Notes under the pieces: generated by a model
The model's database searches: none
Seen by the model: the letters and a program-made list of their open reading frames with translations, nothing else
What the model was told of the DNA's origin: nothing
Shown: piece by piece, positions 2-5,204 of the stretch
How the letters are laid out: each line of letters begins with the position of its first letter
Position numbering within the stretch: position 1 is the stretch's first letter
Translations under genes and position numbers: made by a program
IMG/VR virus record: IMGVR_UViG_3300005581_000136
Coordinates: 1-23,620 of that record
From: a virus
DNA length: 23,620 nt
Direction: 5' to 3' (one strand)

Positions 2-769
2 CTCCTCGACAACGACACCCTAGGGTCACAGTGGGGCTATGCGCTGGAGTCCGAGATTCTCATCCTGAACGAATTGAAGGAGCCCGAGGCCCGTGAGCGC
101 CGGGCGCTTGCCAACAAATTGAAGCCGGTCATCGCCGCCCCGCCCGATATGCTCACGGTCAACCGCAAGGGGCTGCACCCGTATGACAGTCTGAACCGCA
201 TGTTCGTCTTGGCGTTTTCCAATGACCCCGTGCCGATCACAATTGACAGTCAGGACCGCCGTTGGTTCTGCGTCTGGTCCTCGGCGCCTCGCATGGCCCC
301 AGACGCCGCCGCCCGGCTCTGGAACTGGTACAAGGCCGGCGGTTATGAGGCGATCGCCGCTTGGTTGAAGGCGCGGGACGTCTCCGCCTTCAACCCGTCG
401 GCCGCGCCGGCCTGGACCGAGTTCAAGGCAAACCTGGTCGAGCATGGCATGAGCATTGCCGAGTCGTACCTGGTCGAGATGATGCGCGGCCGCAGGGGCG
501 AATTTGCCCGAGGCGTGGTCGGTAGCCCCTTCCATAGCCTTTGCGACCGTGTGGCGGCGTCTGCGCCGTCTGGCGTCAAAGTACCGCAGGCTGCGCTCCT
601 CCATGCGCTGAAGGAGGCCGGCTGGATCGACTGCGGTCGGCTCAAGTCGCGCGCCAATGACGGCCGCAAGCACGTTTTCTGCGCGCCCGATATGTTGCAG
701 CATAGCAAGTCTGAACTGCGCGATTTGGTCGAGGAACCCGCATCGCCGCTCATGGTACGGGTCAAATAG
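2..769 (+). CDS. Phage replicative primase/helicase, DUF5906/D5-like, C-terminal part (5' end outside window)
   Basis: The reading frame is open from base 2, so the start lies upstream of the window. About 255 C-terminal residues remain. The stretch IAAPPDMLTVNRKGLHPYD, followed by VLAFSNDPVPITIDSQDRRW, matches the sensor/arginine-finger part of phage superfamily 3 helicases fused to primases (DUF5906 type, related to P4 alpha and pox D5). The SNDP stretch and the DRRW arginines are the typical conserved elements. These enzymes unwind DNA at the phage origin and prime synthesis. The Walker A motif would lie upstream and is not seen. The last ~90 residues (from about GVVGSPFHSLCDRVA to CAPDML) look like a winged-helix DNA-binding tail. 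The gene converges on a minus-strand operon, with a hairpin between them. The function call is firm as a family; the origin-binding role of the tail is inference. Confidence 0.85.
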   Translation, partial: LLDNDTLGSQWGYALESEILILNELKEPEARERRALANKLKPVIAAPPDMLTVNRKGLHPYDSLNRMFVLAFSNDPVPITIDSQDRRWFCVWSSAPRMAPDAAARLWNWYKAGGYEAIAAWLKARDVSAFNPSAAPAWTEFKANLVEHGMSIAESYLVEMMRGRRGEFARGVVGSPFHSLCDRVAASAPSGVKVPQAALLHALKEAGWIDCGRLKSRANDGRKHVFCAPDMLQHSKSELRDLVEEPASPLMVRVK

Positions 770-1737: not shown

Positions 1738-1866
1738 TTAGCTCCAGAGAATGTCAAAGTAAGCCAGACCGAGCGCGGCCAAAGCAAGGCCGACGACGAG
1801 CGCGGCGAGGAAGTCGAGCGCGGCGCTGGCGCGGCGCGCGGGCTTGGGTTGGTAGTGTTGCCTCAT
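1738..1866 (-). CDS. Small single-pass membrane protein, 42 aa
   Basis: The start chosen gives MRQHYQPKPARRAS, because GAGGAGG lies 7 bases upstream on the minus strand; a longer frame to 1926 has no such site. The product has a basic N-terminal tail (about residues 1-14) and then one hydrophobic segment of roughly 20-25 residues (ALDFLAALVVGLALAALGLA), ending YFDILWS. The positive-inside rule predicts N-in, C-out topology. Its start overlaps the upstream 93-aa gene by 4 bases (ATGA), arguing for coupling. Function unknown. It is one of two tiny membrane peptides in this operon. Confidence 0.7.
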   Translation of the reverse strand: MRQHYQPKPARRASAALDFLAALVVGLALAALGLAYFDILWS

Positions 1867-2144
1867 GCTGCGGCCTCCTCGCGCTGGGTTAGCTGGTTGA
1901 TGCGATCGCAAAGGTTTTGCAGGCATCCGTCGTACTCTTGGAAAACGATGCCGCCACCATAGGCTTTAGTGTGGTGCTTCTTTCCGCCGATGCTGTTGGC
2001 GAGCTTGCAGGCAATCGCGTAACGCTTGGACAGTCCTATCTTGGACCGCCAGCCGTGGACGTCCAGGTGCAGGAAATGGCAAACGTGGCGCGGGTTGCCG
2101 TTGACGTCGTTGCGTATGCGGGTGAAGTTGCTAGGGGTGATCAT
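1863..2144 (-). CDS. Conserved hypothetical phage protein, 93 aa
   Basis: The protein starts MITPSNFTRIRNDVNGNPRH and continues with VCHFLHL, a run of small helix-forming residues, then HHTKAYGGGIVFQEYDG. The pattern 'PSNF.RIRND.NGNPR.VCHF' and 'YGGGIVFQ' is one I recall from small uncharacterised proteins in several tailed phages, so it is likely a conserved family without known function. It carries Cys and His residues (VCHFLHLDVH, KKHH) that could bind metal, although no regular zinc motif is clear. AAAGGAG stands 8 bases before the ATG. It overlaps the membrane-peptide gene by 4 bases and lies 3 bases after the 63-aa gene. Confidence 0.75.
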   Translation of the reverse strand: MITPSNFTRIRNDVNGNPRHVCHFLHLDVHGWRSKIGLSKRYAIACKLANSIGGKKHHTKAYGGGIVFQEYDGCLQNLCDRINQLTQREEAAA

Positions 2145-2671: not shown

Positions 2672-2779
2672 CCTACAAAATAGTCGGGATTGTGGGCCAT
2701 GTGTGGTTAGCTTGTGGTCAATGCGCGGGGATATGCGTGACCCACACGCTGTCATTGGGAGAACGGGCTTTGTGGTCCA

Positions 2780-2788
2780 TGTGGATAA
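2780..2788 (-). promoter_or_regulatory. Perfect DnaA-box match
   Basis: TGTGGATAA on the plus strand is TTATCCACA on the minus strand, identical to the strong bacterial DnaA box. It abuts an AT-rich stretch to its right. A one-mismatch version, TTGTCCACA, lies at 3105-3113. A single 9-mer can occur by chance; its place beside the AT-rich palindrome and among the repeats raises the odds that it is used. Confidence 0.5.
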
Positions 2789-2836
2789 TGAGTTGTATAG
2801 TCTAAAAGGAGATATATATACTGTATATATGTACAG
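2785..2836 (+). promoter_or_regulatory. AT-rich stretch with 17-bp palindrome; possible unwinding element and promoter
   Basis: This is the most AT-rich stretch of the control region. It contains the exact palindrome ATATATAC-T-GTATATAT at 2814-2830. A plus-strand promoter can be drawn: TTGTAT (2793-2798), 18 bases, TATACT (2817-2822), but no convincing gene follows it. Lying next to the DnaA box, it could be the melting element of an origin, or a promoter for an origin transcript. Confidence 0.4.
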
Positions 2837-2932
2837 CTATGGCTGCTACGCTCGCCACCAACCCGCGCCGCGATTGCCCACATTGACCACAAACGCGTTT
2901 TTGGCTGTAACTTGTTGATTTTAAAGGGCTTT

Positions 2933-2993
2933 TTTGTGGGTCATTGTGGGTCAATACCATAGTCCAACAATGACCCACACGATGACCCACAAA
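2933..2993. repeat. Large inverted repeat built from TGTGGGTCA units
   Basis: The left arm 2933-2953 carries two tandem TGTGGGTCA units with 10-base spacing. The right arm 2971-2993 carries two inverted TGACCCACA units with 12-base spacing. The arms match for 12 and 9 bases with a 2-base offset between the blocks. The 17-base spacer is 2954-2970. It could bind a protein tetramer or extrude a hairpin. Confidence 0.65.
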
Positions 2994-3180
2994 CTGGCGC
3001 CAAAACTGTGGTCCATGTGGGCAATGGCTAAAGGGTTGCCCACATGACCCACACTCCAAGCGCGTAGCTACGCAAGCCCTGCGACTGTCGGGCCATGGTC
3101 CACATTGTCCACATGGTCCACGCGGCTGCTGGCCGCTTGGCTGTGTGAGTGAGGGCTTGCTAACCAGGGGGGAGGGGGAG

Positions 3181-3259: not shown

Positions 3260-3703
3260 ATGTTCGAGACCCTGCCATATGAGCCGCGTCAGTTGCAAGC
3301 GACTGAGGACCGGCTGCATCGCATCTACAAGGCTGCCAAGCTCGGCCTCAAGGGCGACAACTTGGCGCTGGCCGCAGGCATGTTGCCCAAGGAGTACGCC
3401 AGGCTCAAGCAGTTTGACGAGATTGCGGAGTACGCTGAACTCAAGGGCCGCGCCGAGGGCGAGCTGGAGATGAGCCACCTGCTGCACGACGCCGCAGCGC
3501 AAGGCGACGCCAAGGCGGCGCTGGCGATCTTGCAGAACGTCCACGGCTGGGTAGCCAAGCAGGCTATTACAGTAGATGTGAACCAGTCGATCAGCATCAC
3601 AGCGGCGCTACAAGAAGCCGAGCGACGCGTCATCGACGTCATCGAGAACAACCCAAGCCAAGTGCTACAACATGCAGACCACACGTTACAGCGCGCAGGA
3701 TGA
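3260..3703 (+). CDS. Putative terminase small subunit
   Basis: 147 aa, directly before and overlapping the large terminase gene by 32 bases, the standard place of terS. The N-terminal part has a helix-turn-helix-like segment (about residues 28-50, LGLKGDNLALAAGMLPKEYARLK). It is followed by a helical oligomerisation-type segment (51-80) and a C-terminal part with GDAKAALAILQNVHGWVAK (82-100) and a last helix. Small terminases recognise the packaging start on concatemeric DNA and regulate the large subunit. The ATG at 3260 has no Shine-Dalgarno sequence in front; a TTG at 3215 in frame sits too close to GGAGGG to use it. No specific family is recognised, so the call rests on fold pattern and position. 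Confidence 0.75.
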   Translation: MFETLPYEPRQLQATEDRLHRIYKAAKLGLKGDNLALAAGMLPKEYARLKQFDEIAEYAELKGRAEGELEMSHLLHDAAAQGDAKAALAILQNVHGWVAKQAITVDVNQSISITAALQEAERRVIDVIENNPSQVLQHADHTLQRAG

Positions 3704-5204
3704 GCAGGAGCTGATGGCTCGGCTATGGAGCCCGGCCATCAAGGACAACCCGCTGGCGTTTGTGATGTTCGCGTACCCGTGGGGCGTCAAGGGCACGCCA
3801 CTGGAGCACTTCACTGGCCCGCGCAAGTGGCAGCGCGAGGTGCTCGCGACTATGGCCGAGCACATTAAAAAGAACGGCGGCAAGGTAGACTTTGACGTGC
3901 TGCGCCTGGCGGTCAGTTCGGGCCGGGGTATCGGCAAGTCGGCGCTGGTCAGTTGGATCACGGACTGGATGTTGTCCACGCGCATCGGCTCGACGACCAT
4001 CATATCGGCTAACAGTGAAAGCCAGCTCCGCAGTATCACCTGGGCCGAGCTGACAAAGTGGCTGGCGATGTCGATTAACAGCCACTGGTTTGAAGTAAGT
4101 GCTACCAGACTGATGCCGGCCAAGTGGCTGACGGAGCTGGTTGAGCGCGACCTGAAGAAAGGCACTAGATACTGGGGCGTTGAGGGGCGGCTATGGTCGG
4201 CCGAAAATCCAGACGCCTACGCTGGCGTGCACAACTTCGACGGCGTGATGGTGATCTTCGACGAGGCGTCGGGTATTGACGACGCTATCTGGGCGGTGAC
4301 CAGCGGATTCTTCACCGAGAACACGCCAAACCGCTTTTGGCTGGCGTTTTCCAACCCGCGCCGCAACACCGGGTACTTCTACGAGGCGTTTAACAGCAAG
4401 CGGGAGTTCTGGGCGTCAAAGATCGTGGACGCCAGGACGGTCGAGGGCACTGACAAACAGGTGTATGAGCAGATCATTGCGGAATACGGGCCGGACAGCA
4501 GCCAAGCGCACGTCGAGGTGTATGGTCAGTTCCCCAACGAGGGCGACGATCAGTTCATCAGCATCGGTGTGGTCGATGAGGCGATGAAACGGGCCAAGCA
4601 TATGGACCAGTCGGCACCAATTGTGATCGGCGTAGACCCGGCGCGGTTCGGGGCAGACGCGACGGTCATCGCCGTGCGGCAAGGGCGCGACATCGTCAAG
4701 CTGATACGGCATCGGGGCGACGACACCATGACGGTGGTCGGGCACGTCATCGACGCGATTGAGGAGTTTAAGCCGTCGCTGGTCAACATCGACGAGGGCG
4801 GGTTGGGGGCGGGGGTCGTGGACCGGCTCAAAGAGCAGCGGTACAAGGTCAGGGGCGTAAACTTTGGCAATAAGGCCAAGAATCCCATTATGTACGGCAA
4901 CAAACGGGCTGAAATGTGGGGTGATATGCGCGATTGGTTGAAAACAGCCAGCGTGCCCAACGACAGGTTCTTGAAAAGTGACTTGATTTCGCCTAAGATG
5001 AAGCCCGATTCGCGTGGTACTATATTTCTAGAGTCCAAAAAGGACATGAAAGCCCGTGGTTTGGCCTCACCGGACGCAGCAGACGCCATCGCGCTGACGT
5101 TTGCGTATCCTGTCGCCAGCCGAGAGTATCGTGAGCCAAAGTCACACATTCGCACCGCAAGCGGGTATAGTGGCGGGGCTGTAACCAGTTGGATGGGGGC
5201 GTAA
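3672..5204 (+). CDS. terL: Terminase large subunit (packaging ATPase and nuclease)
   Basis: 510 aa, full length. ATPase domain: Walker A SGRGIGKS (83-90, Lys89), Walker B VMVIFDE (192-198, Asp197-Glu198), and a coupling motif around AFSNP (225-229). RNase H-like nuclease: Asp322 in VIGVDPARFG, Asp374 in VNIDEGG, and Asp468/Asp471 in SPDAADA near the end. It pumps DNA into the prohead through the portal and cuts it. The start overlaps terS by 32 bases with no clear ribosome site, suggesting coupling; an ATG at 3714 after AGGAG is another possible start that would remove 14 residues. The stop abuts the next gene directly. The family is certain; headful cutting is inferred from the P22-like context. 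Confidence 0.96.
   Translation: MQTTRYSAQDEQELMARLWSPAIKDNPLAFVMFAYPWGVKGTPLEHFTGPRKWQREVLATMAEHIKKNGGKVDFDVLRLAVSSGRGIGKSALVSWITDWMLSTRIGSTTIISANSESQLRSITWAELTKWLAMSINSHWFEVSATRLMPAKWLTELVERDLKKGTRYWGVEGRLWSAENPDAYAGVHNFDGVMVIFDEASGIDDAIWAVTSGFFTENTPNRFWLAFSNPRRNTGYFYEAFNSKREFWASKIVDARTVEGTDKQVYEQIIAEYGPDSSQAHVEVYGQFPNEGDDQFISIGVVDEAMKRAKHMDQSAPIVIGVDPARFGADATVIAVRQGRDIVKLIRHRGDDTMTVVGHVIDAIEEFKPSLVNIDEGGLGAGVVDRLKEQRYKVRGVNFGNKAKNPIMYGNKRAEMWGDMRDWLKTASVPNDRFLKSDLISPKMKPDSRGTIFLESKKDMKARGLASPDAADAIALTFAYPVASREYREPKSHIRTASGYSGGAVTSWMGA

Follow-up and report, generated by a model that had tools for sequence, protein, structure and literature searches.

The window, the whole 23.6-kb stretch of viral DNA that we analyzed, is a virus record, probably a fragment, from a water phage, a podovirus with a P22-type portal. 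Annotated relatives are MW202483.1 and OR003940.1. From its left end it holds the 3' part of a primase-helicase gene, several small leftward genes, a long non-coding gap with a dense repeat array, and the small terminase gene terS. The features considered here are as follows, in positions of the window.

2..769, plus strand: primase-helicase gene, 3' part (255 aa; end of a DUF5906 D5-like helicase plus the C-terminal domain), the proposed initiator
455..742, plus strand: predicted winged helix at the C-terminus (fragment residues 152-247; AlphaFold2), the proposed origin-binding domain
644..670, plus strand: wing tip KSRANDGRK (K215-K223), the specificity loop; K215/D220 from pair contrasts, with R217 and R/K222 tracking the word
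2691..3121, no strand: iteron array, candidate replication origin; 18 TGTGG-core units in both orientations, kept in place in about 150 relatives
2691..2789, no strand: left iteron set; cores 2691+, 2702+, 2713+, 2742-, 2771+, 2780+
2784..2833, no strand: AT-rich segment, candidate DNA unwinding element; 24% G+C, between the two iteron sets
2873..3121, no strand: right iteron set; cores 2878-, 2887-, 2935+, 2945+, 2975-, 2987-, with further cores 3007+, 3016+, 3040-, 3049-, 3100-, 3109-
3260..3703, plus strand: terS, small terminase gene (ORF); neighbor of the array, outside the proposed module

Counting TGTGG/CCACA cores revealed exactly 18 in 2691-3113 of the window, nine on the plus and nine on the minus strand, mostly paired head-to-tail and 9-12 bases apart. 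Order-1 Markov sequences of equal length held a mean of 1.2 cores under the composition of the window and 2.9 under the region's own composition, with 9 the most in any of 5000 sequences. Chance is therefore disfavored by a wide margin and the array is real, even though local composition lifts the expectation to about 3. The general unit is TGTGG-N-[CT]-[AC]-A-[TA], with TGTGGGTCA/TGACCCACA present six times and TGTGGTCCA just twice, and the core at 2780+ (TGTGGATAA) is a perfect E. coli-type DnaA box as well. The gap that holds the array is bounded by the final small gene of the leftward group, whose start codon ends at 2599, and by the terS ATG at 3260. No other non-coding gap in the window is longer, and terS starts 140 bases downstream of the array. 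Nothing was found when the window or array region was scanned for Rfam families, tRNAs and promoters.

A first-pass annotation, made from the sequence alone, had described about 18 copies of the core in two orientations, some of them tandem at 9-12 base spacing and all lying between divergent operons, and each of these points held. Its expectation of about one copy held in part, given the two composition models. Its full-unit sequences were partly wrong, as TGGTCCACA had been misread as the reverse complement of TGTGGTCCA, the true reverse complement being TGGACCACA; TGGTCCACA is the complement of TGTGGACCA. The claim that this is the only gene-free region failed, since other gaps exist, and the claim that it lies near the primase/helicase gene was off, as a distance of 1.9 kb and several small leftward genes separate the array from that gene's stop codon (about 769). 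The AT-rich segment at 2784-2833 inside the array had been overlooked.

One of these leftward genes (1863-2144, minus strand) matches Pfam Phage_TreK, a Staphylococcus phage terminal-repeat protein, at E 6.5e-17, here in an unrelated podovirus, and its neighbor at 1072-1395 matches P22 NinX.

The primase-helicase fragment matches DUF5906 and the PHROG 'DNA primase'. There is also a weak match to the solved phage primase 6k9c. Full-length relatives span 764-785 aa with DUF5906 above cut-off, and the full-length protein of L089 begins with a region weakly matching an AEP-like primase (RepB_primase, E 0.0013, below Pfam's cut-off), followed by the DUF5906 helicase and then the winged helix; no TOPRIM was matched in full-length relatives at E 0.01, just the weak RepB_primase. 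One feature of the P4 alpha/SaPI Rep type is a D5/SF3-type helicase fused to a primase-like N-terminus, and this the protein has. It also agrees with that type in its predicted C-terminal winged helix, in iterons of its own genome that are paired with this domain by sequence covariation, and in the placing of iterons on both sides of an AT-rich region. A first structure model of the whole 255-aa fragment was of low quality in the helicase region. AlphaFold2 on the 106-aa C-terminal domain gave a mean pLDDT of 89.8 and predicted three helices plus a two-stranded wing, with the loop that varies among relatives at the wing's tip. Foldseek of the domain against the PDB returned no match at E 0.001 or better, and the best-ranked PDB chains in a fold comparison were mostly winged-helix proteins (Z up to 6.8), a common arrangement whose predicted likeness says nothing on function. 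The P4 origin-binding domain gave no relevant sequence match and was absent from the 50 listed fold-comparison rows, which does not exclude likeness.

Arrays and their words in related phages

Viral-contig scans with TerL and with the primase-helicase fragment yielded 158 further loci, a third scan yielded 68 more, and the covariation set comprised about 190 relatives. A genome-contig search had matches in only five metagenome-assembled contigs, and no host was identified. Array words were taken as over-represented 8-mers upstream of TerL, one mismatch allowed, and word classes were set by eye ahead of the tests; per-locus EM motif finding converged on composition motifs and was dropped, with mismatch-tolerant word counts used instead.

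These scans revealed a dense two-orientation array just upstream of terS in about 150 related phages, usually stronger than any control stretch of its own locus, and a single array per genome in 10/10 near-complete relatives examined. The word itself varies by lineage, and includes TGTGGACAAT, TGTGGTCCAT, TTTGGGTCAT, TTTAGGTCAT, TGTAGTCAT, TATTGTCAT and others; array, conserved place and changing word are all directly shown. The window's own word is TGTGG[TG]CCAT, further lineage words are TGTGGGTCAT, TGTGAGTCAT, TGTTAGTCAT, TGTAGG[TC]AAT and AATATTG[CT]CAT, and L103, a close relative with a 99% identical TerL, has TGGGTCAT in place of TGTGG words. A clear array word was not found in some relatives (L140, L150, L153, L133).

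Several loci hold arrays of other kinds. One clade (L025, L027, L029, L036, L039, L069, L073) has a second dense array, GTTAGT/ACTAAC, upstream of terS, standing beside or instead of the TGTGG array and with no reader assigned. L131 has 19 copies of GTCGGCG (4281-4646) as tandem direct repeats on one strand upstream of TerL, replacing the typical array. OR003940.1 (L004) has an array of near-palindromic TGACCCA[GC]TGGGTCA at 3597-4259, and its primase C-terminal tail shows no recognizable kinship to that of the window.

Across 42 TGTGG arrays, same-orientation units were 9 bp apart in 176 cases, the next spacing being 11 bp (15 cases); the 9-bp step also holds for TGGGTCA arrays (98 cases), and the shorter word TAGTCAT has an 8-bp step (19 cases). 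The segment at 2784-2833 ranks among the lowest-G+C 50-mers of the window, and in 89/152 relatives the array contains the 50-mer with the lowest G+C of its locus, where 11.7 would be expected by length alone, an excess partly due to the array being non-coding because non-coding DNA is generally AT-richer. Two or more units stand on each side of the AT-rich segment in 115/135 arrays. The presence of this segment is shown, and its opening is inferred.

The array word tracks the C-terminal domain of the primase-helicase

Pairwise comparison of word similarity with protein identity gave a rho of 0.32 for the primase-helicase (0.32 also given TerL), against 0.04 for TerS, 0.01 for the polymerase, 0.07 for a small leftward gene family, 0.11 for TerL and 0.14 for the portal, and these correlations do not support the latter five as specificity determinants. 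Phages whose words differ can have TerS proteins of 97-99% identity. A segment-by-segment scan of the primase-helicase reached 0.44 over the last ~80 residues and at most 0.34 elsewhere, and given the whole primase-helicase the partial correlations were 0.32 and at most 0.14, respectively. The word tracks the C-terminal ~80 residues, the predicted winged helix, above all the wing tip (K215, R217, D220, R/K222).

Word class changes 28 times on a helicase-only tree, and of 11 well-supported independent pairs on that tree, 8.3 showed a wing change in step with the word and 0.1 a change against it (median p 0.008). As wing and word change together, protein and landing site seem to evolve as lock and key. 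A natural chimera makes the same point at a single pair, L089/L106, whose primase-helicases hardly differ ahead of the wing and diverge from there on (wings KSRANDTKKH and ASADYPSKKN), whose words differ, and whose TerS proteins are 99% identical.

Side-by-side reading revealed that the wing, which follows LLHALKEAGW, shifts with the word, such that K-S-R-x-x-D goes with TGTGG, A-S-[GA]-D-x-x-S with TTTGGGTCAT, and M-S-R-x-Y-[TP] with TGT(T)AGTCAT; the wing of L155, for one, is MSRDYTAKKH. Four wing-word rules were fixed before the 68 new loci were opened, and one of the four failed. The K-S-R-x-x-D rule for TGTGG was right in 20/21 new loci with >=2.8 kb of downstream sequence, the sole exception (L186) lacking a TGTGG array; the M-S-R rule for TAGTCAT was right in 9/10 and the Y-S-R rule in 1/1. 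The failed rule, A-S-x-[DE]-x-x-S, was wrong in all four loci covered, where words were TATTGTCAT-type or unclear. Among matched pairs, K215 and D220 differ in 17/20 that are discordant for the word versus 2/20 that are concordant. Two further associations are descriptive and uncorrected for relatedness: R217 accompanies GT in the word's 5' half in 114/116 distinct combinations, and R instead of K at 222 accompanies G/T instead of A at base 6.

The exchanged block in matched pairs extends from the primase C-terminus across the small genes to the array's right end, and stops between array and terS. Because this block spans wing to array, simple hitch-hiking had to be ruled out. Wing identity correlates with the word at rho 0.615, and at 0.606 once helicase identity and the content of intervening genes are controlled for (0/500 permutations), whereas intervening gene content scores 0.10 alone and -0.10 given the wing. 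Median word similarity is 0.02 for pairs with different wings and shared intervening genes, and 0.62 for pairs that share the wing but none of these genes. The word cannot be predicted from the genes in between, so the covariation is not due to linkage.

Origin interpretation, rival readings and known systems

We consider it most likely that the array is a replication origin made of iterons, to which the primase-helicase binds through its C-terminal domain, an inference from sequence alone for which there are no binding or replication data. In the mechanism we propose, the winged-helix domain of an AEP-like primase plus DUF5906/D5-type helicase would bind 9-10 bp words in head-to-tail pairs with a 9-bp step, in two sets flanking the AT-rich segment. 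The helicase, loaded through paired words, would then open that segment and prime synthesis, the wing tip would set which word is read, and lineages would repeatedly have swapped wing and array together. That the covariation is limited to the C-terminal domain and strongest at its wing is shown, and physical binding is inferred from it; opening, priming and replication start at the array are inferred from known relatives (P4 alpha, SaPI Rep, Cch2, PICI origins).

The first-pass annotation had offered both an origin and a packaging site. Its origin half, a P4-type pairing of the primase-helicase C-terminal tail with repeats of its own genome, is strongly supported by the covariation, and its packaging half, with TerS as reader, is unsupported, TerS identity not predicting the word. 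It had also proposed looking for conserved repeats at the same place in relatives, where dense arrays are indeed found in about 150, and for a cumulative GC-skew minimum, which in ten near-complete relatives did not fall consistently at the array; the extremes were scattered and the skew was uninformative. The origin reading gains nothing from the skew, and counting against it are L186, the failed A-S-x-[DE]-x-x-S rule, the wordless relatives, the GTTAGT array without an assigned reader (the clade around L029/L039/L073), and OR003940.1 with its palindromic array and a tail not recognizably related.

The rival that survives best, which we nonetheless regard as unlikely, is that the wing binds the array mainly for regulation (autoregulation, timing of the divergent operons, copy control) and not for replication start. 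The array does lie between divergent operons, initiator binding alone does not prove initiation, and GC skew offers no support for a start at the array. Against this, two iteron sets around the locus's most AT-rich segment are the origin architecture described for PICIs (PMC6092414), no promoter consensus above shuffles was found in a scan of the array region, and, as the ten near-complete relatives have one array per genome, they offer no second cluster of that word to serve as the origin.

A pac site recognized by the small terminase is very unlikely. The array adjoins terS, and in many phages pac lies near or within that gene. However, TerS identity is unlinked to the word, different words accompany TerS proteins of 97-99% identity, and the exchange block stops between array and terS.

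Equally hard to sustain is the view that the units are clustered DnaA boxes, with either the host's DnaA or a DnaA-like HTH protein of the phage as their reader. In its favor, TGTGG is common to the DnaA box, one perfect TGTGGATAA stands at 2780, and MW202483.1 encodes a DnaA domain IV-like protein. However, just 1/18 window units matches TTATNCACA, the words of other lineages do not, TTTGGGTCAT, TGTAGTCAT and TATTGTCAT among them being unlike DnaA boxes, and Bac_DnaA_C was found in 1/34 records searched. The protein in question is a small one with a DnaA domain IV-type helix-turn-helix (MW202483.1 31477-31671, W01; L003 7083-7379, minus strand) that matches Bac_DnaA_C at E 3e-19, was not found in the 33 other records searched, and is possibly a DnaA mimic.

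Finally, that wing and array are merely co-inherited on one cassette whose real reader is another gene would fit the extent of the exchanged block, from primase C-terminus through small genes to the array's right end, and is rendered very improbable by the word following the wing (0.606 partial) and not gene content, as the 0.02 and 0.62 medians also indicate.

Returning to the reading of the array as an origin bound by its own primase-helicase, the mode of action proposed here is established for P4 alpha (PMC4234260) and for SaPI Rep (PMC7581432). Short repeats in two orientations are found at the P4 origin. The primase of P4 alpha is of the TOPRIM type (PMC4234260) and relatives here have just the weak RepB_primase (AEP-like) match; unlike P4 alpha, the present phages have many lineage-specific words that covary with the wing. 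SaPI/PICI Rep and SCCmec Cch2 are self-loading initiator helicases whose C-terminal domain recognizes iterons (PMC7581432), and in PICI origins two iteron sets flank an AT-rich region (PMC6092414), as in the window array. However, SaPI/PICI origins lie directly 3' of rep. This does not hold in the window, where the primase-helicase ends at 769 and the array, beginning at 2691, lies 1.9 kb off, beyond several leftward genes and beside terS in a podovirus; the distance in relatives is similar. On our reading, the iterons here are bound by their initiator as in P4 alpha and SaPI Rep, and what differs is the 1.9-kb distance and a legible protein-DNA code.

The inference from covariation has experimental precedent in PLE RepA (Vibrio cholerae satellites; ICP1 Odn), whose DNA-binding domain covaries with the origin and for which swapped origins proved the cognate pairing (PMC8263062). 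PLE RepA belongs to the RepA_N family, with an N-terminal binding domain, ~30 bp semi-palindromic iterons and two specificity groups, whereas the present phages show a different fold, at least six word classes and a residue-level pattern. A phage nuclease targeting one origin type was offered as a reason for repeated exchange in that system (PMC8263062).

Implications for origin specificity

A bolder reading, to be taken as one joint claim and toward which we lean by a narrow margin, is that the wing carries a legible amino-acid-to-base code (R217 for GT in the 5' half, K215 plus D220 for GG, R in place of K at 222 with G/T in place of A at base 6) and that origin specificity has passed between these phages again and again as a wing-plus-array cassette; competing phages or satellites that parasitize or target origins are a plausible driver. 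If this is true, the origin word would be predictable from protein sequence and origin-compatibility groups could be mapped in metagenomes.

Most phage origins in metagenomic genomes are unidentified because skew and repeats are weak guides, and here natural variation alone, without experiment, links a probable origin and its proposed reader to a few residues. With at least six specificity classes and matched natural protein-DNA pairs, two questions become directly testable: how a wing by itself can alter which bases are recognized, and what makes phages switch origin specificity so frequently.
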